Positions 27,431-43,386 of a stretch of DNA of 64,000 nucleotides are shown here, piece after piece. The notes under the pieces are model-generated. The model worked only from the letters and a program-made list of their open reading frames with translations. It was not told the DNA's origin and did no database searches. The stretch is from Kordiimonas aquimaris (lineage in GTDB: Bacteria > Pseudomonadota > Alphaproteobacteria > Sphingomonadales > Kordiimonadaceae), in NCBI RefSeq assembly GCF_025574485.1, contig NZ_JAOBPO010000004.1, forward strand, positions 62,001 to 126,000, given 5' to 3'. Every line of letters begins with the position of its first letter. Positions within the stretch are counted from its first letter, which is position 1. A program made the translations under genes and the position numbers.

Positions 27431-29206
27431 ATGAAAAAAAATAAAGATACGCTTCGTAGTCGCCAATGGTTTGATAATCCTGATGATCCGGGAATGACAG
27501 CACTTTATCTGGAGCGATATCTGAACTTTGGTTTTACCGCCGAGGAGTTGCAATCTGGCCGCCCTATAATCGGTATTGCGCAAACCGGTTCAGATTTGTC
27601 ACCGTGTAACCGCCATCATATTATTTTGGCTGATCGTGTATCTGACGGTATTCGCGATGCTGGTGGCATTCCAATCGAGTTTCCTGTTCATCCCATACAA
27701 GAAACAGGTAGGCGGCCTACTGCGGCTCTTGATCGTAATCTTCAGTGTATATCATTAACTGAAGTATTGCATGGGTACCCCATTGACGGCGTTGTCTTAA
27801 CCACGGGGTGCGATAAAACTACACCTGCGATGCTGATGGGTGCCGCGAGTGTCAATATGCCCTCTATTGCACTGTCTGTCGGGCCTATGTTGAACGGGAA
27901 TTATCTTGGGCGCTGTGTAGGGGCTGGTACCATTATATGGGAAGCTCGGCGCAAATATGCACAAGGTGAAATTGATTATGCCGAATTTATGGATATGGCG
28001 GCGGGTTCTGCACCATCAGCTGGACACTGCAATACCATGGGTACCGCGTTAACGATGAACAGCTTGGTTGAGGCTCTTGGTATGATGTTGCCGGGAACAG
28101 CCTCTATTCCGGCACCTTACCGTGAACGTCAGCAAGCAGCATATAAAACCGGAAAACGCATCGTTGACATGGTCTGGGAAAACTTGAAGCCAACAGACAT
28201 CATGACAAAAGCAGCCTTTGAGAATGCGATTAAGGTTACAGCCGCTATTGGTGGATCAACAAACGCGCCTATTCATATAAATGCGATCGCCGCTCATGCA
28301 GGTGTTGATGTGTCTATGGATGATTGGCGACGGGCGGGTGCGGATGTACCTCAGATTGTTAATTGCCAGCCGGTTGGTGAATATTTGTCTGAAGAATATC
28401 ACCGTGCAGGCGGCGTACCAGCTGTTATGGCAGCTCTATTGACGGCGGGTATTATAGAAGGTGATGCACAGACCGTTAGTGGCAGTTGCGTGCGAAAGAA
28501 CCTTGAAAATGTTAGCACACAAGATGAACGGGTGATCAGGCCAGTTACCAACCCTGTAGCCGAGCGTGCAGGCTTCATCGTTATGTCTGGTAATTTCTTT
28601 GATAGTGCGATTATGAAAGCTTCAGCAATAACAGACACATTCCGAGCGCGGTATTTGCAGAACCCTGACAAACCAGATGTTTTTGAAGCCAAAGTAGTGA
28701 TTTTTGAAGGTCCTGAAGATTATCATCACCGTATAGACGATCCATCTCTTGGAATTGATGCCAATACAATTCTCGTAATGCGTGGTGTTGGGCCAAAGGG
28801 TTACCCTGGTTCAGCTGAGGTGGTGAATATGCAGCCGCCGAGCCAATTGATGAACCTGGGTATAACCGAGTTGCCGACAATGGGTGATGGTCGACAAAGT
28901 GGTACCTCTGGTGCGCCGTCTATATTGAATATGTCACCTGAATCTGCTTCAGGCGGTGGTCTTGCGTTGATACAAAATGGAGATGTTTTGCAGATCGATT
29001 TGCGCGCTTGTCGCATTGACCTGCTAGTGAGTGATGATGACTTGGCGCAACGCAAAGTCACAGCAGTCAGCGATATGCCAGCACCGCAAACATACTGGCA
29101 GGCACTTTATCAGCAAGAGGTTACAGAGCTGAGTGAAGGGGCTACTTTTAAAACGATGCCAAGCTTTTCTAATCTGGTTAGCAAAACGCCACGTAACTCT
29201 CATTAA
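27431..29206 (+). CDS. IlvD/Edd-family sugar-acid dehydratase, probable D-galactonate dehydratase
   Basis: A 591-residue Fe-S dehydratase of the pentonate/hexonate branch of the IlvD/Edd family (N terminus R-S-R-Q-W-F-D-N-P-D-D-P-G-M-T-A-L-Y). Cluster cysteines appear in G-S-D-L-S-P-C-N-R-H, T-T-G-C-D-K-T-T-P-A and G-H-C-N-T-M-G-T-A. Relatives act on L-arabinonate, D-xylonate or L-fuconate; the operon with dgoA points to D-galactonate, giving 2-keto-3-deoxygalactonate. The enolase-type DgoD is not in this window, so this gene would fill that step. Confidence 0.88.
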   Translation: MKKNKDTLRSRQWFDNPDDPGMTALYLERYLNFGFTAEELQSGRPIIGIAQTGSDLSPCNRHHIILADRVSDGIRDAGGIPIEFPVHPIQETGRRPTAALDRNLQCISLTEVLHGYPIDGVVLTTGCDKTTPAMLMGAASVNMPSIALSVGPMLNGNYLGRCVGAGTIIWEARRKYAQGEIDYAEFMDMAAGSAPSAGHCNTMGTALTMNSLVEALGMMLPGTASIPAPYRERQQAAYKTGKRIVDMVWENLKPTDIMTKAAFENAIKVTAAIGGSTNAPIHINAIAAHAGVDVSMDDWRRAGADVPQIVNCQPVGEYLSEEYHRAGGVPAVMAALLTAGIIEGDAQTVSGSCVRKNLENVSTQDERVIRPVTNPVAERAGFIVMSGNFFDSAIMKASAITDTFRARYLQNPDKPDVFEAKVVIFEGPEDYHHRIDDPSLGIDANTILVMRGVGPKGYPGSAEVVNMQPPSQLMNLGITELPTMGDGRQSGTSGAPSILNMSPESASGGGLALIQNGDVLQIDLRACRIDLLVSDDDLAQRKVTAVSDMPAPQTYWQALYQQEVTELSEGATFKTMPSFSNLVSKTPRNSH

Positions 29207-29293
29207 ACGGACCAGTTTTCCTGTTTTAAGCGCTGATCAGTTCTCGGTTACTGAGATGTGTTCGTGGAAGAATCCTGGCTTTTTAATCTTGTT

Positions 29294-29330
29294 GACACTT
29301 AATTCGTGTCATACCTCTTTGTTAAAAGAG
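29294..29330. other. Weak hairpins in the 274-bp gap before the export operon
   Basis: The gap 29207-29480 holds two small inverted repeats: GACAC-N7-GTGTC (29294-29310) and CTCTTT-GTTA-AAAGAG (29315-29330), the latter followed by TGATAGTTTTTA. They could end the dgoA-dehydratase transcript, but the stems are short and A/T-rich. I see no gene in the gap. Confidence 0.3.
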
Positions 29331-29480
29331 TGATAGTTTTTATCTATATTTAAATATAATCATTGAAAGTTTTTATAAAATGATTATTTCGACTGCAGAG
29401 TATTAGTTACTCTTTTTTGCTAGCGCGGCTTTTGTTGTGTTAACGTGTCTGTAATTATAGAAAAAGGTTGGTTTCGTCTT

Positions 29481-31157
29481 ATGAAAACCGCTAGTCACTT
29501 CCCGCATAAAGATGCTTTCAGGCATATATTCCGGAGCATCCTTTCACCAGAGACGCCCTATTATAGACTTGCTATATTGCTAAGTGCTTTCATAAGCTTG
29601 CTAACACTTGCTGTGCCAATTTCAATTCAGATGTTGATAGACCAGGTAGCAAACACGGCTCTGTTGCAGCCTGTCATCATACTATCGGTAACTTTGTTTT
29701 CTTTACTTGCGCTCGCAGGAATATTTTACGCAGCACGTGAGTATGTTTTGGAGTTGTTTGAGCGTCGCGTTTTCTCGCGTCTTGCATCTGAGATTGCGCT
29801 CAAGATTGTAAATTCACCAACGTCCTTTTTTGACCAGCGTCGGCGGGACGATCTTATTAATAGATATTTCGATATTATGACGGTCAAAAAGGCTTTGCCG
29901 TCCTTGTTGATTGGTTTGTTTTCTTTTCTTTTTCAGGCTCTTATCGGTTTTACCGTTACAAGTTTGTACCATCCGATCTTTTTATTGTTCAACGCTGTTC
30001 TAATCTCGCTACTTTATGCCGTCTGGAAGCTTTGGGGCTGGCGCGCAACAGAAAATGCGTTCCATATGAGTGAAGCCAAATACGACGCAGCTAGCTGGAT
30101 TGAAGCGTTATCTCACAATGCGGATTTCTTTAAAGCCGGTCCTAATGGTGACGATGCTATTCGCAAAACTAATAATGTTATTCAGCATCATGTTGACATG
30201 ATGAAAGAATACTTCCGGATTACTTTCAGGCAGCTCATTACCTTATTATTGTTATATGCAATTGCGAGCGCCGCACTGCTTGGCCTTGGTGGTTGGTTGG
30301 TTATTCTTGGTGAGCTATCGCTGGGGCAATTAGTGGCCGCCGAATTGATTTTGTCAGCCATCTTTAGCGGTTTTGCGCTGTTAGGCCACTATATGAAAGA
30401 ATATTATAGCCTGTGCGCCGCAGCCGAAGAATTAAACCGTATTCGTGCCATTCCCTCGCGGTTGCCAGCACGTGCTGATATGACACCCGCTGGCGGCGGC
30501 AAGGTTAATATCAGAAGCGCGAGAATTATTGATTCTGGATATGATGTAACAATTAGCTTTGCTATGGATGCTGGTGCGTCCGTTCGTATTGCTGATTGTT
30601 CTCCGTTTCAGCGGCGTGCTTTAGCAAGAGTACTAAAGGGCCATATAACAGTTGCGTCTGGGCAGGTGGAAATCGACGGGGTTGATGTTCAAGATTGGCA
30701 CCATCAAACGTTGAATGGTGAGGTACGTGTTCTTGATCGACCAACCTTGCCACAGATGGAGTTACTTTCTTATGTACAGCACGGTCATCCTGAAATTGAC
30801 CGAGCACAGATACATGCGGCCATTGAGGCTGTCGGCCTTGGTGATCGTGTAAACTCTCTGCCACAGGGTATTGATACCATTATTGCACCAAGTGGCTGGC
30901 CTCTTGCCATTGAGGAAGCATTAAGACTTAAGCTTGCGGCAGCAATAGTTGATGCACCGCGCCTATTGTTGCTGACTGATGTATATGATTTGGTCGCTCC
31001 GGAATATATCAACGCTGCGGTTAAAGCATTGCGACAAAAACGTCAGATCAGTGTTGTTATTATCAGAAAGCTAGATGACCTCGATGAGTTTTCAACACAA
31101 GAATTGTTGGCTAATGAGCAATTGCATGAAGCTGGTTCAAATGAGGTGCAGTCATGA
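29481..31157 (+). CDS. ABC exporter subunit with fully degenerate ATPase domain
   Basis: From the ATG at 29481 (a GTG at 29445 is an alternative) this is a 558-residue fusion: a type I exporter membrane domain with about six helices (residues ~25-310, including FFDQRRRDDLINRYFDI) and an NBD-like domain (~335-550). Aligned by eye with HlyB/LapB-type exporters, each ATPase motif is changed. Walker A becomes ADCSPFQRRA (30591-30620), the LSGGQ signature becomes LAIEE, the Walker B D-E becomes T-D (LLLLTDVYD), and the switch His becomes Arg (VVIIRKLDD). The frame is intact and the domain full length, so this is a conserved non-ATPase protein rather than a pseudogene. It overlaps the adaptor gene by four bases (ATGA). 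Confidence 0.85.
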   Translation: MKTASHFPHKDAFRHIFRSILSPETPYYRLAILLSAFISLLTLAVPISIQMLIDQVANTALLQPVIILSVTLFSLLALAGIFYAAREYVLELFERRVFSRLASEIALKIVNSPTSFFDQRRRDDLINRYFDIMTVKKALPSLLIGLFSFLFQALIGFTVTSLYHPIFLLFNAVLISLLYAVWKLWGWRATENAFHMSEAKYDAASWIEALSHNADFFKAGPNGDDAIRKTNNVIQHHVDMMKEYFRITFRQLITLLLLYAIASAALLGLGGWLVILGELSLGQLVAAELILSAIFSGFALLGHYMKEYYSLCAAAEELNRIRAIPSRLPARADMTPAGGGKVNIRSARIIDSGYDVTISFAMDAGASVRIADCSPFQRRALARVLKGHITVASGQVEIDGVDVQDWHHQTLNGEVRVLDRPTLPQMELLSYVQHGHPEIDRAQIHAAIEAVGLGDRVNSLPQGIDTIIAPSGWPLAIEEALRLKLAAAIVDAPRLLLLTDVYDLVAPEYINAAVKALRQKRQISVVIIRKLDDLDEFSTQELLANEQLHEAGSNEVQS

Positions 31158-32218
31158 AAAGCTATTCGTTCGAAGATAAGTATGACGAACGCCAACTGCA
31201 CATGTTGTCGGTGCTGAAAAAGCATCGAATACCATCAGCAATGCGGGTTTTTGCTATTATCAGTAGTTTGATTGCTGTGTGTATCGTGTTGTTCATCACG
31301 TTTGTGCCTTGGGTTCAAACCATTCAAGGGGCAGGAAAGATTGTCGCGTTGGATCCTTCTGACCGCGAGCAAGCGATTAGTGCGCTTGTTCCTGGTCGTA
31401 TCGCGAAGTGGTACGTTAGAGAAGGTAGCCGTGTGCAAGCAAGAGATCCGATTGCACTGATTGTTGATAACGACCCGCGGTTGGTTGAACGTCTCAACAC
31501 GCAATTGAGCCTGGCACGTGAGCGGCTTGCAAGCGCGCAAACAGCACTGCGAACAGCGCAGTTGGATGCGACACGTAAAGAAAAATTACTTGCAGATGGT
31601 TTGGTTTCTCGGTTGGAGATGGAGCAAGCACAAATAGCGCTCGCAAATTTTGAAGTGCGTGCTCAAGGTGCAGCTGATGACCTGAACCGCGCTGAACTGG
31701 CCTTGTCGCGTGAAGGCAGCCAGGAGTTGCTAGCGCCGCGTGCAGGTGTGATTACAAGAGTAATGTCTGGCGGCACATCTACCTTTGTGAAGGCTGGTGA
31801 TAGGTTGGCGCAGTTCGTTCCAGATAATATCGAGAGCGCTGTTGAAATATACGTAGACGGACGTGATGCGAGCCTAGTGTCTATTGGTAAGCCCGCGCGC
31901 CTTCAATTTGAGGGATGGCCCGTTGTGCAATTTAGTGGATGGCCATCTGTAGCTGTTGGAACCTTTTCTGGTGAAGTGTCCTATGTTGACCCTATTGCAG
32001 CGCCCAACGGTTTGTTTCGTGTTGTTGTTAAGCGGTCAAGTGACGGACCTGCATGGCCACCGAATAATATTCTCCGCGTTGGCACAAATGTGCGTGGATG
32101 GGTATTGCTTGATGAGGTGTCTGTTGCTTACGAACTGTGGCGTCAGTTGAATAACTTCCCGCCCGAGTTTCCTGCTAATATAGCGCAGCCTGACTCTGGC
32201 ACGAGTGGGGCGTACTAG
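31154..32218 (+). CDS. HlyD-family periplasmic adaptor (membrane fusion protein)
   Basis: A 354-residue type I secretion/efflux adaptor: cytoplasmic N terminus, one transmembrane helix (residues ~35-55, VFAIISSLIAVCIVLFITFV), a biotinyl-lipoyl half-motif (VPGRIAKWYVREGSRVQARD), an alpha-hairpin coiled coil (~95-185), a second lipoyl half (LLAPRAGVITRVMSGG) and a beta-barrel domain. It bridges the inner-membrane component and the TolC channel. Its ATG overlaps the upstream stop, and the TolC gene follows after 2 bp, so the three make one export unit. Confidence 0.92.
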   Translation: MKSYSFEDKYDERQLHMLSVLKKHRIPSAMRVFAIISSLIAVCIVLFITFVPWVQTIQGAGKIVALDPSDREQAISALVPGRIAKWYVREGSRVQARDPIALIVDNDPRLVERLNTQLSLARERLASAQTALRTAQLDATRKEKLLADGLVSRLEMEQAQIALANFEVRAQGAADDLNRAELALSREGSQELLAPRAGVITRVMSGGTSTFVKAGDRLAQFVPDNIESAVEIYVDGRDASLVSIGKPARLQFEGWPVVQFSGWPSVAVGTFSGEVSYVDPIAAPNGLFRVVVKRSSDGPAWPPNNILRVGTNVRGWVLLDEVSVAYELWRQLNNFPPEFPANIAQPDSGTSGAY

Positions 32219-32220
32219 CG

Positions 32221-33729
32221 ATGAAATTTTCATTTAAGCTTCTAATTGGTTTAGCCACGATAATGGGTACGCCCCTGACAGCAATTGGTCAGTCAAGCTC
32301 ATTAGAAGACGAGCCGCTCTCATTAGTGCCTGTAGTTGAGGAAACATATCAGGCGCCAGCTGCCTCAAAAAAGCTGATGTTTTCTATGTTGCGGGCAAAC
32401 GGAATTGGCACAACCTTAGAAGATGTTTTGCACTCAGTAGATGTTCACGCGCCTCAGATAATCCAGTTACAAAGTGATATTATTATTGCTGAAGCAAATG
32501 AACTTTCAGCATCTAGTGGTTTTGATCCGGTCATTGCTGCCAGATACAGTGGCCGTTTAACTGGTTTTTACGGTGGTCAGGTTGGAGACGTTGAAGTACA
32601 GCAACGTTTATCTGGTCTCAACGCGGAAGTTTATGGTGGCTACAGCATATCACAAGGTCGATTGCCTGTTTATGAGGACCAGTATCTTACAAATAATGAC
32701 GGTGAATTCAGAGCAGGGGCCAGTATCGAACTGCTCCGCGGCCGAACAATTGACCCTGTAAGGCTACGATTAAGCAATGCGCGTTTAAAAGTAAATGAGG
32801 TAGTCCAGTCTGCTCAGTCAGAGACGATTAATATTAAATCAGATGCGGCTACAGCGTTTGTAAACTGGCTGTATGCAGAGCAAATTAGAGATGTTTATTT
32901 CGAGCTTTTCAGAATTGCAGAGATGCGTGTCGAAGATATTGAGAAATCAATTGCTGCGGGACAACTCGCTGAAATAACGCGAGATGAAAATCAGCAATTG
33001 TTGCTTACGCGTCAAAGTCAGCTTTTGAAAGCTGAACAAATCGTATTAGAGCAAAAAGCGCGTTTGGGCTTTTTCCTGCGCGATGATGATGGGGCAACTA
33101 AAATGCCAGTTGTTGGCGCAAATTCCATGGTGCCTCAGAACGACCCATACCACAGTGTTCCTGTAGCTGAGCTTGTGCAACGCATTCATGAAAGCCGGCC
33201 TGATATTGTAGCGCTGCAGTTGGATATGCAACAATTGCTTGCTGAGCAGCGATTAGCTGAAAATGATCAGCAACCGGACCTTACATTTAACTATGAAGTA
33301 AGGCGTGATTTTGGTCGAGGAGACGAAATCCGCGCGGGGACGGATCATAAGGTTGGTTTGGCGCTCCGGGTGCCATTGCAGTTTGCGCAAGCCCGTGGTC
33401 AAATTGCGGCGGCGCGTGCCAAGATAAAAGCTCTGAAAGCTGAAATTCGTATTAGAGAAGAACGTGCTGAACTTGCGCTTCATGCTAATCAGCAGGCGTT
33501 GACGATAACCGAGCAGCAACTTGTTATTGGTGCATCGGAAATTAAAGTGGCTGAAACATTACAGGTGGCTGAACAGTCGCGGTATTTGCAGGGAGCAAGT
33601 GACGTTTTTCGGCTTAATGCGCAAGAAACAGCGCTGGCAAACAGTAAGTTTCGTTTGCTGCAAGCGCAACGAGATCATGATACGTTATTGATTGAATATT
33701 ATCGTATAACTGGGCAGTTTTGGTTCTAA
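32221..33729 (+). CDS. TolC-family outer membrane channel protein
   Basis: A 502-residue outer membrane efflux protein with a signal peptide (residues ~1-23, ending LTAIGQ), two OEP-type repeats rich in long amphipathic helices (residues ~190-290 and ~400-490) and a conserved proline-bearing segment IHESRPDIVALQLDMQQLLAEQ. It forms the exit duct for the adaptor/ABC pair upstream. No hairpin terminator is evident after the stop. Confidence 0.92.
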   Translation: MKFSFKLLIGLATIMGTPLTAIGQSSSLEDEPLSLVPVVEETYQAPAASKKLMFSMLRANGIGTTLEDVLHSVDVHAPQIIQLQSDIIIAEANELSASSGFDPVIAARYSGRLTGFYGGQVGDVEVQQRLSGLNAEVYGGYSISQGRLPVYEDQYLTNNDGEFRAGASIELLRGRTIDPVRLRLSNARLKVNEVVQSAQSETINIKSDAATAFVNWLYAEQIRDVYFELFRIAEMRVEDIEKSIAAGQLAEITRDENQQLLLTRQSQLLKAEQIVLEQKARLGFFLRDDDGATKMPVVGANSMVPQNDPYHSVPVAELVQRIHESRPDIVALQLDMQQLLAEQRLAENDQQPDLTFNYEVRRDFGRGDEIRAGTDHKVGLALRVPLQFAQARGQIAAARAKIKALKAEIRIREERAELALHANQQALTITEQQLVIGASEIKVAETLQVAEQSRYLQGASDVFRLNAQETALANSKFRLLQAQRDHDTLLIEYYRITGQFWF

Positions 33730-33835
33730 GTTGGTGGTTTCTCATTATTTTCTTTAAATGCTAAAATATTATGACCTAATGCATAGTCTGCTTCGTATTT
33801 ATTATTGTTCTTCGCTAATAAATACTTAGGTCAAT

Positions 33836-34051
33836 ATGAAAACCAAAGAAATCAGTGAAATTATCGACCTTGCTTGGGACGATCAGGCTTCTTTCGAAAC
33901 GATCCTGAAACAGACAGGTATTACTGAAGCCGGTGTGATAAGAATCATGAGGCAAAACCTAAAACCAGCGAGTTTTCGTTTATGGCGCAAGCGAGTGAGT
34001 GGCCGAAAAACTAAACATGAAAAACTATTGAGGCCACTTAAGAGTATATAG
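33836..34051 (+). CDS. TIGR03643/DUF2805-type small basic protein
   Basis: A 71-residue basic protein with the TIGR03643/DUF2805 layout: an acidic first part (EISEIIDLAWDDQASFETIL), a turn G-I-T-E-A-G-V-I-R-I-M-R, and K-P-A-S-F-R-L-W-R-K-R-V-S-G-R. The middle looks like a helix-turn-helix-type fold, but no function is established for the family. It stands 107 bp after the TolC gene with its own start context (TAGGTCAAT before ATG, a weak SD). Confidence 0.82.
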   Translation: MKTKEISEIIDLAWDDQASFETILKQTGITEAGVIRIMRQNLKPASFRLWRKRVSGRKTKHEKLLRPLKSI

Positions 34052-34146
34052 GTTGATCTTATACGTATTTGTTCGAATGAACCAAACGGAATGCACCACG
34101 TAGAAAATAAAGTGGGTACTAATAAAGGTAATGGTGAGTACATTTA

Positions 34147-34869
34147 ATGAGAAATTATCGACTTTTTTCAGTAATTTTACTGCTTATCACTGTTCATGTT
34201 TCCCCTGTTTTAGCATTAGAACCTACAATCATTGACCCAGAGCCAACATGCAGTGTTGCCGAAGGAGTAAATGAGTACGAAATTTTCCGTAAAGGAAAAG
34301 AAATCGGTACTCACCGTGTTTGTTTTGCAAAAATAAATGGCGAGTTTCACGTGATTGCTGAAACAAAAATGAAGGTGAAATTCCTGTTCATTACCGCGTA
34401 TCGGTATTGGTATGTTTCAAAGGAAATATACCGTGACGGCGAACTAAAGAGCCTTAAAGCTTACATTGATGATAATGGCAAAAAATGGTCCACTGCGGCA
34501 GTGCGTAATGCTGGCGGATTCCATATCGAAACTGATGAGATTGAAAATCATATAACCCAGGAGCTTTTTACTACAAATCACTGGGATAAAAATGTGATTA
34601 ATCATGAGCTTTTGTACAACACATTAACTGGTGAATTAAACGAGGTTTCGATCAATCCTTACATTGTTCCTGAAGGTGAGAACACCATTACACCCAGGAA
34701 ACTCCAGTATGATGACGCTAACATATACAACGTGCGCGGTGAGCTGGACATTAATTCAATATACGGCACAGATGGCAATTGGCTTGGTATGTATTTTACT
34801 CATAAAGACGGAAGTCTTATTGAGTTCAGGTGTAAGGATTGCCGCAATACACCGCCATCAATATCATAG
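34147..34869 (+). CDS. Secreted DUF6134-type protein
   Basis: A 240-residue protein with a signal peptide (residues ~1-24, ending SPVLA) and a beta-rich domain opening Y-E-I-F-R-K-G-K-E-I-G-T-H-R-V-C-F, typical of the DUF6134/DUF3108-like group of periplasmic proteins; later segments (MKVKFLFITAYRYWYVSKEI) repeat the strand pattern. Cysteines: one shortly after the cleavage site, one in HRVCF, and a terminal C-K-D-C pair. Function is unknown. It is downstream of the export genes on the same strand but 95 bp from its neighbour, so operon membership is uncertain. Confidence 0.75.
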   Translation: MRNYRLFSVILLLITVHVSPVLALEPTIIDPEPTCSVAEGVNEYEIFRKGKEIGTHRVCFAKINGEFHVIAETKMKVKFLFITAYRYWYVSKEIYRDGELKSLKAYIDDNGKKWSTAAVRNAGGFHIETDEIENHITQELFTTNHWDKNVINHELLYNTLTGELNEVSINPYIVPEGENTITPRKLQYDDANIYNVRGELDINSIYGTDGNWLGMYFTHKDGSLIEFRCKDCRNTPPSIS

Positions 34870-39637: not shown

Positions 39638-41464
39638 ATGGGCATGGGAAAACGCATAATATTTGGTGACTTTTGTTTCGATAAAGAGAAGCTTGAGCTA
39701 TGGCGAAACGGTGAAAGTGTGCCGCTTAAACTTCAACCTGCACGCTTGTTGTTGGTTCTGCTTGAAAATGCACCGAAGACAGTCTCCCGGCAGGATATAC
39801 AAGACCGGATATGGGATAATGGTACAACGGTTGAGTTTGAGCATGGCCTGAACGCTTGTGTTAACCAACTACGTGCCGCACTTGGTGATACAGCCCGTGA
39901 CCCCAAGTTCATTAAAACATTACCTAAACGCGGGTATCAATTTGTTGCTGATGTAACAATAGATGGCTCTAAGAAATCGGATGTATTTAATCATGGATAC
40001 ACGGCACTTGTTGCATGTGGGCTGCTGGTGATTGCTGGTTTATTTTATTGGATGCAGGATACACCGAAGCTTACGCGTATTTATGTTGCACCTGTGGTGA
40101 TTGAGGGAGATGCACACCGCGAACTGGATAGTATCGTTCAATATGCTCTGCGGTTAGGGACTGTTGACCGGCTTGCAAGTGAAAACCTTGAGATTATACA
40201 AACATTAAATGGTGTCAGTTTATGGAAAGATCTCGACCCAAGCATGTCGCAGTTAAACATTGATTATAGCTTGTTTATCAGTGTTTCGCCCCAGCCTTCA
40301 GGGTCATATCAGTTAGACGCAAATGTGATCAATGCAAAAGCAGGCACCATATTTGATCATCAAATCTTTCGCGCCGATACGCTGGATGTGAAAAGCTTGT
40401 CTGATCTGTCTGATCAGATTGCACGGTGGTCTGCGAAGTTGTTTGGCTCTAATGCTACTCAGATGCCGCAGCCCTATGAAGAACATTTGCCTGCCTATTA
40501 TGATGCGATGGTGCGTGCGCAGCGTGCATTTCAAATTGGTGACCCTGAAACACTTAAAGATAGTCTGAAGTGGTTTGATACGGCATTAAGCCTGAGTGCT
40601 AATTCTGTTGATGCCAAAGGAGGCAAGGCATTAACACTGGCATTGCTTGCTGGGCGGGAAGGGTTTCCTGTTGCTGATACATATACGCAAGCATTAACTT
40701 TGACGGAAGAGATCAGGATAGCAGCTGGCCCAACGGTGCATTCTGAATTAGTGCGTGGATTTATTTTCCTTTATCATGACTGGGATATTGAACGTTCGAA
40801 GCGTGCATTTGATATTGCGGTGGAATTAGCACCGGGTAACGCTGTTGTTCATTCCTGGCGTGCTGCCACATTAGCTGCTGCTGGTGATGCAACTGCTGCA
40901 GCAAGTGCAGCAGATATTGCGGTACAGCTTGACCCGCTATCTATGTCGATAACGTCAGATCGATGTTGGTATCTGGGTGCTGCAAAGCGAAATACAGAAG
41001 CTGTAACAGCGTGTAACTGGGTGCTGGAGTTATCGCCAGGGCATAATTGGGCGCAGATTGGTTTGGTTGCTGCGCTGGAAAGGTTAGGGCGACACGGCGA
41101 AGCTCTTGATATACTTATGTCTATTCTACCGAGTATGACCGAGCACAAAAAAGAAGCGGATACTGATAAATTAGACATTGATGCGTACACTGATAATAAA
41201 GCTGCTTACCGAGCTATTTTTTGTGAGATAGCAGAGAGATTGAAACCTCGTGTTGAAGCTGGCCAGTTTCCGTCTGCGCAAATGGCGGCATTTATGGCCC
41301 AATGCGGGCAATATGACCAGACTGCACATTTTCTAGAACAAGCAATGCGTGGTGGAGAGTCCGGTGTGCTTTTTTATCAGGTTGACCCAAGGTTTGATGA
41401 ATTTAGGGAAGATCCAATATCAAAGAATGTCGATATGACGATCAAAAAACGAGGTATTCTTTGA
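39638..41464 (+). CDS. CadC/ToxR-like membrane transcriptional regulator with periplasmic TPR domain
   Basis: A 608-residue one-component regulator: an OmpR-type winged helix in the cytoplasm (residues ~8-105, ending KTLPKRGYQFVADV), a single transmembrane helix (~122-142, YTALVACGLLVIAGLFYWMQ) and a large periplasmic part. The latter holds an alpha/beta domain followed by TPR-like helical repeats (~300-560). Such proteins sense a periplasmic or membrane signal and bind DNA directly. Translation could start at codon 1 or 3 (MGMGKR). Genes downstream encode secreted proteins that may be its targets (inference). Confidence 0.87.
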   Translation: MGMGKRIIFGDFCFDKEKLELWRNGESVPLKLQPARLLLVLLENAPKTVSRQDIQDRIWDNGTTVEFEHGLNACVNQLRAALGDTARDPKFIKTLPKRGYQFVADVTIDGSKKSDVFNHGYTALVACGLLVIAGLFYWMQDTPKLTRIYVAPVVIEGDAHRELDSIVQYALRLGTVDRLASENLEIIQTLNGVSLWKDLDPSMSQLNIDYSLFISVSPQPSGSYQLDANVINAKAGTIFDHQIFRADTLDVKSLSDLSDQIARWSAKLFGSNATQMPQPYEEHLPAYYDAMVRAQRAFQIGDPETLKDSLKWFDTALSLSANSVDAKGGKALTLALLAGREGFPVADTYTQALTLTEEIRIAAGPTVHSELVRGFIFLYHDWDIERSKRAFDIAVELAPGNAVVHSWRAATLAAAGDATAAASAADIAVQLDPLSMSITSDRCWYLGAAKRNTEAVTACNWVLELSPGHNWAQIGLVAALERLGRHGEALDILMSILPSMTEHKKEADTDKLDIDAYTDNKAAYRAIFCEIAERLKPRVEAGQFPSAQMAAFMAQCGQYDQTAHFLEQAMRGGESGVLFYQVDPRFDEFREDPISKNVDMTIKKRGIL

Positions 41465-41587: not shown

Positions 41588-42457
41588 ATGATCTCAAGTC
41601 AGGCAACCTCACGTATTACTGTTTTTAGTTTTATGCTTAGTCTAGTGCTTTGTACAAGTTTCAATGCTCAGACCTTGGCTGTTGTGCAATACCCTGAAAA
41701 CCATAAGGATGTCTGTTATCAAACACAGGCTTGCTATAGCGTTCCTGTCGGTTCGAGCGATGTCAATTCTGATCGTCTAAAGCCTTATTCAGCAAAATGG
41801 ACACAATTAGTAAGAGACGAGGGTCAATTCGTCAGCACGCCAGTGGTTTTTGAAGAAACATTATCACTGGATGAAGACGGCAATTGGTTGCATACGCAAA
41901 CGGTGACAACAGGCGGCGTACTGAATGGTAGTGGTATACGTACCTTGGATAGGCAAACATTAGAAGTTCTAAGCTTAGAGTTGTTGTTCCAAAACCCGGC
42001 AGAAGGTCAGCCATCAAAAGTGTACTACGATCTTACTGAAACGGAGTTTGCGGCTGACGTAACATTTGCTGACGGGCGGAAGCAAAAAGGCCAAAGTCGC
42101 TTCAAAGCTATTCCAATGTTTGATGGTCAAATCGCGGGCGTAACAATTGCAGCACTACCATTAAAGCAGGGCTATTCAGCGACGCTACCGATGATTATTC
42201 CTAATTTAGGTGTTTACTGGATTGAGGTAACCGTTGTTAGCAGGCGGAAGATAGCTGCTGGGCAACGTAGTGATATTGATGTCTGGGAAGTGGAAGCTCA
42301 TTGGTTGAATCTGACGGACGGCGATATATACCCTTCCGGTCGTGATGGGTCGGGCGGTGTGTATTATATTGCCGCAATTCCTGAGCCTGGCATGCCGCAT
42401 GTAATTGAATATGCAAACGACACAAGTGTTATTTCTTGGGACGGTATTATTCGCTGA
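41588..42457 (+). CDS. Secreted hypothetical protein (289 residues)
   Basis: A signal peptide (residues ~1-28, ending SFNAQT) precedes a beta-rich domain of ~260 residues with two cysteines near the N terminus (DVCYQTQACYS), likely a disulfide. Segments such as SGIRTLDRQTLEVLSLELLF and SRFKAIPMFDGQIAGVTIAALP recall DUF3108-like periplasmic proteins, which often read out a 'true product' of hydrolysis or binding; I cannot assign the family. It precedes a second secreted gene of the same length by 62 bp, and the pair may be distant paralogues. Confidence 0.72.
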   Translation: MISSQATSRITVFSFMLSLVLCTSFNAQTLAVVQYPENHKDVCYQTQACYSVPVGSSDVNSDRLKPYSAKWTQLVRDEGQFVSTPVVFEETLSLDEDGNWLHTQTVTTGGVLNGSGIRTLDRQTLEVLSLELLFQNPAEGQPSKVYYDLTETEFAADVTFADGRKQKGQSRFKAIPMFDGQIAGVTIAALPLKQGYSATLPMIIPNLGVYWIEVTVVSRRKIAAGQRSDIDVWEVEAHWLNLTDGDIYPSGRDGSGGVYYIAAIPEPGMPHVIEYANDTSVISWDGIIR

Positions 42458-42519
42458 TTCAAGCTGATGCCTCCAAGTTACGTTCCATTGATTTTCGTTC
42501 ATAAATAAGGACTATTTCT

Positions 42520-43386
42520 ATGAGATTAGAATTTTTCCATACTTTCAGAAATGCAGTATTCATGTCTTGGATTGTTGTTTGTGGGGTAGGTAACGTTGCA
42601 TCGGCGCAAACGCGGCTTTCAATAGAAAACTTCGCCAACGCAGAAGAATGGCCAGTGTATTCTGCAGGTGAGATTAAGTTGAACAACGACAAGATCGGAA
42701 ACTTTCGCGTTGCTTATGATGGCATTTTTCAGTCGCCTGAAGGGCCACTCAAACTTGCTACATATATTGATGTATCGGATGTAATGTACAAAGGCATTCC
42801 GGCACAATGGATGCAGTGGTCGTTTACGAGCGAAGAAGAAGGCGGAGATGGTGTACCCAATCTGGATTTGCTGATCATGGACAAGAAAACAGGTGGTTTA
42901 CGGTTTCGCATGTTACCAGCAGGTCAAGGCAGTGACGAATGGGACCATTTATACAACTTTATCGGCGTTAGCTCGGAAGCGATGAAAAGAACGGTATTCC
43001 TGGAAGATGGTTCTGCACAAACAGAAAAGGTAAAAATTGATAATTCAGTCTTTGATTTTGGAGGATTGCCTTTTGTGCTGCCCTTTATGGATTTGAAGCC
43101 GGGTCAAGGTATGCGCCTCAATGCGTATCAGCAATCGGGTGCGGGTGGTATTCAATTTTTGGATGTTAAAGTTATTGGGCCTGCAGAAGTTGTCGATACA
43201 AAAGGCGCCCGCTATAATGTACTGGAAGTGCAAACCGCAGCACCCAGCCGCACTTCCATAATCAGCTTCTATGTTTCCGATAAGGCTCCATATTTTTATG
43301 GATGGGATTACCGTAAGGTTGAAGATGGTACATCGCTTTTTAAGATGATTTACCGTGGATATGTGCGAACAGAGATCGCCAGTTAA
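42520..43386 (+). CDS. Secreted hypothetical protein (288 residues)
   Basis: A long signal peptide (residues ~1-32, ending NVASAQ) and a beta-rich mature domain with W-P-V-Y-S-A-G-E-I-K and SRTSIISFYVSDKAPYFYGW segments. Length and general build match the preceding gene (both contain a 'hydrolysed substrate'-type DUF3108-like pattern of alternating strands), but sequence identity by eye is low. No catalytic motif is recognised and function is unknown. Confidence 0.7.
   Translation: MRLEFFHTFRNAVFMSWIVVCGVGNVASAQTRLSIENFANAEEWPVYSAGEIKLNNDKIGNFRVAYDGIFQSPEGPLKLATYIDVSDVMYKGIPAQWMQWSFTSEEEGGDGVPNLDLLIMDKKTGGLRFRMLPAGQGSDEWDHLYNFIGVSSEAMKRTVFLEDGSAQTEKVKIDNSVFDFGGLPFVLPFMDLKPGQGMRLNAYQQSGAGGIQFLDVKVIGPAEVVDTKGARYNVLEVQTAAPSRTSIISFYVSDKAPYFYGWDYRKVEDGTSLFKMIYRGYVRTEIAS

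Follow-up and report, generated by a model that had tools for sequence, protein, structure and literature searches.

An ABC-exporter-fold subunit with degenerate ATPase motifs in a HlyD–TolC operon of Kordiimonas aquimaris belongs to a widespread family

ATP-binding cassette (ABC) exporters are defined by ATP-driven transport, and in type I secretion (HlyB/PrtD–HlyD–TolC) such an exporter is combined with a HlyD adaptor and a TolC channel. In tripartite pumps of the MFS and RND families, such as EmrAB–TolC and AcrAB–TolC, the inner-membrane subunit hydrolyses no ATP. CFTR is an ABC exporter fold that acts as a channel and not as a pump, binding ATP and being gated by it, and the degenerate partners of heterodimeric ABC exporters normally retain Walker A. 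The passages of PMC7756269 and PMC8277102 that we drew on treat degenerate ABC sites in connection with heterodimers and paired sites; they make no mention of a family lacking every motif, which is not proof of its absence in print. Here we describe a three-gene export operon of Kordiimonas aquimaris (RefSeq assembly GCF_025574485.1; 3.8 Mb; G000 in our numbering) whose ABC subunit has lost its ATPase motifs, together with the family to which it belongs. The operon lies in a window of 64,000 nucleotides (contig NZ_JAOBPO010000004.1, positions 62,001 to 126,000), which is the whole stretch analyzed. Among the titles and abstracts listed by a search of the open PMC literature, which covers few subscription papers, none describes this family.

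The three frames of the operon run unbroken and head to tail on the forward strand, with the ABC and HlyD genes sharing a 4-bp overlap (ATGA) and the HlyD and TolC genes separated by a 2-bp gap (Table 1). The ABC open reading frame (ORF) is read from an ATG, and its open frame reaches further upstream to a GTG at 29445. Pfam ABC_membrane (PF00664) covers residues 30 to 295 of the ABC subunit (E = 2.5e-12; 47.5 bits against a cut-off of 28), identifying an exporter-type transmembrane domain, and the adaptor and channel match HlyD_3 (E = 2.1e-13) and OEP (E = 1.1e-29), respectively. The C-terminal nucleotide-binding domain (NBD) reaches 20.7 bits against ABC_tran (PF00005), under the gathering score of 25. 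When aligned to canonical exporters of its own genome (L002–L005 in one alignment; L002, L003, and L005 in a second), the subunit lacks Walker A, the Q-loop, the signature, Walker B with its glutamate, and the switch histidine, and so has none of the features of a functional NBD; the residues in register read VLDRP in the Q-loop region, GWPLAIEE in the signature region, and LLLLTD at Walker B. A preliminary description of this DNA, made by eye from its letters, had reported an intact frame, full domain length, tight junctions to HlyD and TolC, and degenerate readings at four motifs (ADCSPFQRRA for Walker A, LAIEE for the signature, T-D for Walker B, and arginine for the switch histidine). The ORF coordinates and the alignment agree with it on all of these points, and the alignment keeps the motifs in register, with no intact ATPase motif seen elsewhere in the protein.

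The window operon belongs to a widespread family that has no name. The gene is present in 11 of 29 Kordiimonadaceae genomes and in 86 of 397 genomes sampled from the window's order; when the window's class was sampled evenly, 4 of 387 genomes were positive at E 1e-50, the window's own counted. A contig scan returned 201 relatives, with record titles that point to Sphingomonadales, Parvularcula, Caulobacterales, Methyloceanibacter, Halieaceae, and others. The laboratory strain Novosphingobium aromaticivorans DSM 12444 also has the three genes (SARO_RS19820–19810). Remoter members occur outside the class, in two further orders of the phylum (4 of 150 and 56 of 121 genomes) and on Bacteroidota plasmids (Persicobacter, Aureibacter, and Riemerella). 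A profile of the adaptor, run against 397 genomes of the phylum, gave 17 matches, and a degenerate ABC gene adjoins the adaptor in all 14 of the surroundings that were fetched. Among the matches listed, 15 copies are plasmid-borne; five of these are annotated as "ABC transporter ATP-binding protein," three as "ABC transporter transmembrane domain-containing protein," and the rest are listed without annotation. The first of these labels misleads for this family. One member (L149, 1429–3756), an ORF of 776 aa, is considerably extended at its N terminus and reads SGRGSST at a half-lost Walker A.

Motifs were read in the sequences that were fetched, a set outside which lie 121 of the 201 contig-scan relatives, the hits beyond 30 fetched loci of the further-order search, and the new hits of the order scan. 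From the contig scan, the best 80 of the 201 relatives' loci were retained; 79 of these have an NBD (L087 does not), and a canonical Walker A or signature occurs in none of the 79. Our family alignment comprises 131 distinct sequences from Alphaproteobacteria, Gammaproteobacteria, and Bacteroidota, including the window protein and omitting that of genome G008, described below. The signature SGG is kept in none of them, and the Walker A pattern is matched in four (L141, L147, and the Persicobacter and Riemerella sequences); the catalytic column holds glutamate in 5 of 131, the Walker B position just before it aspartate in 30, and the switch column histidine in 5. A tree of 48 rows sets the family apart from four canonical exporters with support of 100/100 and places the keepers of Walker A outside a main motif-less group of 38 rows, the support for that group being modest (87/79). 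Walker A requires a minimum of three state changes on this tree, a count that goes with a program warning of long branches meeting and with an unsure rooting. Because Walker A survives in 4 of 131 sequences on deep branches and the signature in none, motif loss looks like an old, stepwise trait of the family. The preliminary description was right about the loss in this copy, which is not peculiar to it but family-wide, with Walker A left in the four; no homologue with canonical motifs in the same operon was found among the sequences examined.

The ABC gene is under purifying selection. Across 133 close pairs (identity 75–97%, dS < 1.5), which share ancestry and so do not amount to 133 independent tests, the membrane domain has a median dN/dS of 0.077 and the NBD one of 0.136 (NBD maximum 0.385), with the NBD value the higher in 127 of the 133. 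The membrane domain is also closer to the window protein than the NBD is in all 33 family sequences compared: 30 of these show 41–49% identity in the membrane domain and 18–33% in the NBD, and the remaining rows are L016, of the same genus (73% and 59%), L141 (30% and 22%), and L140 (27% and 14%). The NBD is therefore more loosely constrained, given its lower identity and higher dN/dS, yet not free, since the ratio is still below 1. Purifying selection, together with the lack of a canonical motif set in any same-operon homologue examined, supports the earlier proposal that the motifs were lost under continued selection for a non-ATPase role.

Within the membrane domain, all 131 family sequences have both Glu288 (E288) and Lys200 (K200), and W206, Q283, Y163, and H164 are conserved at 98–99%. 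Alignment places E288 in what is probably transmembrane helix 6 (TM6), within the membrane. The same column in canonical exporters contains glutamate in 0 of 24 sequences, the residues being I, N, Q, S, M, T, or A; these 24 comprise four references and 20 hand-picked from the PF00664 list, all with Walker A and 19 of the 20 new ones with a recognized signature.

One relative has dispensed with the NBD altogether. In the Kordiimonadaceae metagenome-assembled genome G008, the ABC gene (L022/L087) encodes 333 aa, the whole NBD being gone in frame. The protein, which shares 58% identity with the membrane domain of the window protein, keeps E288 and K200 and stops just beyond the domain linker, its stop codon overlapping the HlyD start by ATGA; the HlyD and TolC ORFs that follow are open. 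No remnant of an NBD was found near the gene (best tblastn E 4.6). When the whole G008 genome was queried with an NBD, the matches were two 663-aa PF00664 exporter frames (27% and 22% identity) and two fragments at E > 0.1. Such a short form is found in G008 only among the 86 positives of the order; in G1298, the family match starts at model position 99. The NBD-less form speaks for a conduit, or for export powered in another way.

In gene order and in its three component classes, the operon matches type I secretion, and the two best NCBIfam models for the ABC subunit are those of PrtD and HlyB. The scores, however, are 113 against 510 bits (TIGR01842) and 95 against 726 bits (TIGR01846), so that the subunit does not attain either type I subfamily model, and the family further differs in its missing ATPase motifs, its short efflux-type adaptor, and the lack of an RTX-like ORF in the flanks examined. 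The order of ABC gene, HlyD-type adaptor, and TolC-type channel itself is well kept: in 100 of 102 loci (known duplicates removed) there is room to see the adaptor, whose start is no more than 200 bp from the ABC end in 97 and no more than 260 bp from it in the other three, and a TolC ORF comes next in all 94 loci with more room. The window adaptor has a short hairpin, with ≈85 aa between the lipoyl halves as judged by eye; hairpins are likewise short in seven aligned motif-less proteobacterial members and longer in L141, Persicobacter, Riemerella, and Aureibacter. Its motifs FEGWPxxQFSGWP and WRQLNNFPPEF are common to the genus and the family alignment. It scores 72.3 bits against RND_mfp (cut-off 94.9) and 42.9 bits against type_I_hlyD (TIGR01843; cut-off 208.7), both below cut-off, and does not class as a type_I_hlyD adaptor. 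No ORF of at least 80 aa with at least three GGxGx(D/N) repeats occurs in the stretches of the 102 loci, in line with the earlier remark that no substrate gene is nearby, and such cargo may lie elsewhere. Of the type I secretion unit that the preliminary description had in mind, the order and component classes hold good, whereas the adaptor scores and the absence of RTX cargo leave an analogy only.

With EmrAB–TolC and AcrAB–TolC, the family shares the adaptor and channel class and, often, a local regulator, and it would also share an inner-membrane subunit that hydrolyses no ATP; it differs in that its inner-membrane subunit has the ABC-exporter fold, not that of MFS or RND proteins. The likeness to CFTR would lie in an exporter fold serving as a channel, and the difference in the nucleotide motifs, which are gone here. 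As for regulators, 36 of 102 loci (97 with room) have a LysR-type gene no more than 600 bp upstream, and 8 of the 102 have one shortly after TolC; these counts come from loci that are not independent and have no background rate behind them. The best models of the LysR genes scanned were OxyR (three), NhaR (one), and LrhA (one), all under their equivalog cut-offs. Four Kordiimonas loci have an upstream gene that we take to be TetR-like, ≈1 kb away in three of them and 4.1 kb away in the fourth. In 8 of the 102 loci, seven from Sphingomonas/Sphingobium and one from the order of genome G716, a gene for DabA, of the inorganic carbon transporter, lies close to the operon; these loci (L140, L102, L105, L143, L073, L079, L086, and L090, one of which belongs to another class) also have LysR-type genes. 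No LysR, TetR-like, or DabA gene was seen beside the window operon.

The reading that we favour, to which we give an even chance, is that the family may constitute an ATP-independent conduit or exchanger with the ABC-exporter fold, docked to a HlyD–TolC duct. The inner-membrane subunit would have kept the membrane fold and lost ATP hydrolysis within a trans-envelope export operon; its membrane domains would pair into a homodimeric gate or exchanger to which the adaptor and the TolC duct dock, and the NBD remnant, where retained, would solely stabilize or regulate the dimer. The substrate, probably a small molecule because LysR-type genes often adjoin the operon, would exit down its own gradient or by coupling to that of an ion, and the invariant E288 is our candidate for the residue that gates or couples this movement. 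More tentatively, and as a possibility that we find less probable, the TM6 glutamate may have made of the exporter fold either a gated pore or a secondary, ion-coupled exporter, free of nucleotide, that works the HlyD–TolC duct, the NBD being deleted later in at least one lineage. A selected, broad, and apparently old family that keeps both fold and tripartite apparatus while discarding the ATPase would permit a direct test of what the membrane fold does alone, and bears on how one fold shifts among pump, channel, and secondary carrier.

Several points weigh against the conduit reading. It derives from sequence comparison, and both the membrane position and the role of E288 come from alignment. 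With a single exception among the relatives examined, the NBD is retained, and it is under purifying selection, so that it evidently has some function; the four deep relatives that retain Walker A may bind ATP. LysR genes are common generally, which makes their adjacency weak evidence for small-molecule export. G008 is a single metagenome-assembled genome, 93% complete; a detached NBD could lie in its missing part, and the form needs confirmation. In addition, each of the 29 Kordiimonadaceae genomes has at least one match to an ABC exporter of another type, and an exporter with a C39 peptidase domain co-occurs with the operon in that family, in 9 of 11 positive and 3 of 18 negative genomes (Fisher p = 0.0013, kinship uncorrected).

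The last two observations lead to the main rival, which we rate as possible though doubtful: that the subunit is half of a heterodimer, or a membrane platform, energized by an active ABC protein encoded elsewhere. Degenerate sites are known in heterodimeric ABC exporters, as the passages of PMC7756269 set out. TM287/288, TmrAB, and BmrCD, which are named in the passages and abstracts that we drew on, resemble the family in having a degenerate NBD in an exporter-fold half-transporter; in contrast, the family has no partner gene found alongside, has mostly lost Walker A and Walker B besides the signature and switch, and in one case has no NBD. We scanned 111 loci (1.34 Mb, mostly ≈6 kb a side, some places being counted twice) for ORFs that match a canonical NBD profile and carry Walker A and SGG(Q/E/M), a pattern that would miss an exporter with an odd signature. 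No canonical exporter with Walker A and signature, and hence no canonical partner half-exporter encoded alongside, was found in these flanks; the matches were one stand-alone ATPase of 310 aa (L135) and nine ORFs that we presume to be UvrA-like, eight of them 977–1054 aa long and the ninth 422 aa. PrtD-like exporters occur in 25 of 29 Kordiimonadaceae genomes, with the operon (10 of 11) and without it (15 of 18). The window's membrane domain is only 14–17% identical to four canonical exporters, and Walker A is mostly lost in this family, unlike in the degenerate partners mentioned at the outset.

The C39 association was not repeated in the order of G716, in which a different probe, the C39 domain (PF03412), matched 37 of 56 operon-positive and 34 of 65 negative genomes (p = 0.14), leaving 19 of the 56 positives without a match. 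Given these figures for the second order, we do not treat the C39 exporter as a dedicated partner. The C39-peptidase exporters themselves, at L204 (G000:C25, 4586–12100), L205, L208–L210, and L213, stand with what we take to be CvaA-like adaptors and small ORFs with GG-leader-like starts, microcin-like by eye; no TolC-like ORF was noticed beside them, and L204 and L205 also have an apparent M16 peptidase. The preliminary description had seen no active ABC partner nearby, as is the case throughout the flanks scanned, and had offered three alternatives: of these, a heterodimer with a neighboring partner finds no support in the flank scan, and a gated channel and another power source are favoured by G008, which does not tell the two apart.

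Unlikely, in our view, is a scaffold role, in which the dead subunit would anchor or regulate the HlyD–TolC duct, or open it for a periplasmic substrate, with no passage across the inner membrane. Such a role would allow two of the observations: where there is room, the ABC gene nearly always has the adaptor and channel genes with it, and G008 makes do without an NBD. The strongest conservation, however, is in the membrane domain (E288, K200, and R128), beyond an anchor's needs. We think it quite improbable that the NBD is a divergent yet working ATPase that uses noncanonical residues. The scattered survivals of Walker A, Walker B aspartate, catalytic glutamate, and switch histidine counted above would suit such an enzyme, but the P-loop Gly-Lys-Ser/Thr, the signature, the catalytic glutamate, and the switch histidine are all gone in most members, and one member has no NBD at all. 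Decay of a single copy of an ordinary type I secretion operon, which the loss of every motif in the window copy might suggest, is refuted by the intact frames, by dN/dS well below 1, by losses common to the examined family, and by the gene's presence in 86 of 397 genomes of the order, and we give it next to no credence.

Table 1. Positions, in the window, of the operon genes and of the domains and former motifs of the ABC subunit
Feature	Position	Strand	Basis
ABC-exporter-fold subunit, 558 aa, ATPase motifs lost	29481..31157	+	ORF reading, Pfam, alignments
Transmembrane domain, ~residues 1–320, better conserved part	29481..30440	+	Pfam ABC_membrane, alignment
Codon of E288 in LGQLVAAE, stretch aligned with TM6	30342..30344	+	alignment
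Degenerate NBD, ~residues 335–553	30483..31139	+	Pfam, alignment
Former Walker A, ADCSPFQRRA, residues 371–380	30591..30620	+	alignment
Former signature, LAIEE (frequent family form PLSxxExMxL)	30903..30917	+	alignment
Former Walker B, PRLLLLTD	30957..30980	+	alignment
Former switch histidine, Arg530	31068..31070	+	alignment
HlyD-type periplasmic adaptor, 354 aa	31154..32218	+	HlyD_3 match
TolC-type outer membrane channel (OEP), 502 aa	32221..33729	+	OEP match

The identified neighbors of the window operon are a dehydratase (IlvD/Edd), a TIGR03643 protein, and a DUF6134 protein; the second is a small ORF (33836–34051, TIGR03643/DUF2805) 3' of TolC, followed by the DUF6134 gene at 34147–34869. 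PADLOC gave no defense-system match for any of the operon's three proteins or for the DUF6134 protein, Rfam no match at gathering score across 28900–34300, and a promoter and terminator scan no signal better than shuffles. Further downstream, at 41588–43386, two adjoining proteins of 289 and 288 aa look secreted by eye and have no Pfam or NCBIfam match at E 0.01; the pair sits downstream of a Trans_reg_C-TPR regulator at 39638–41464.

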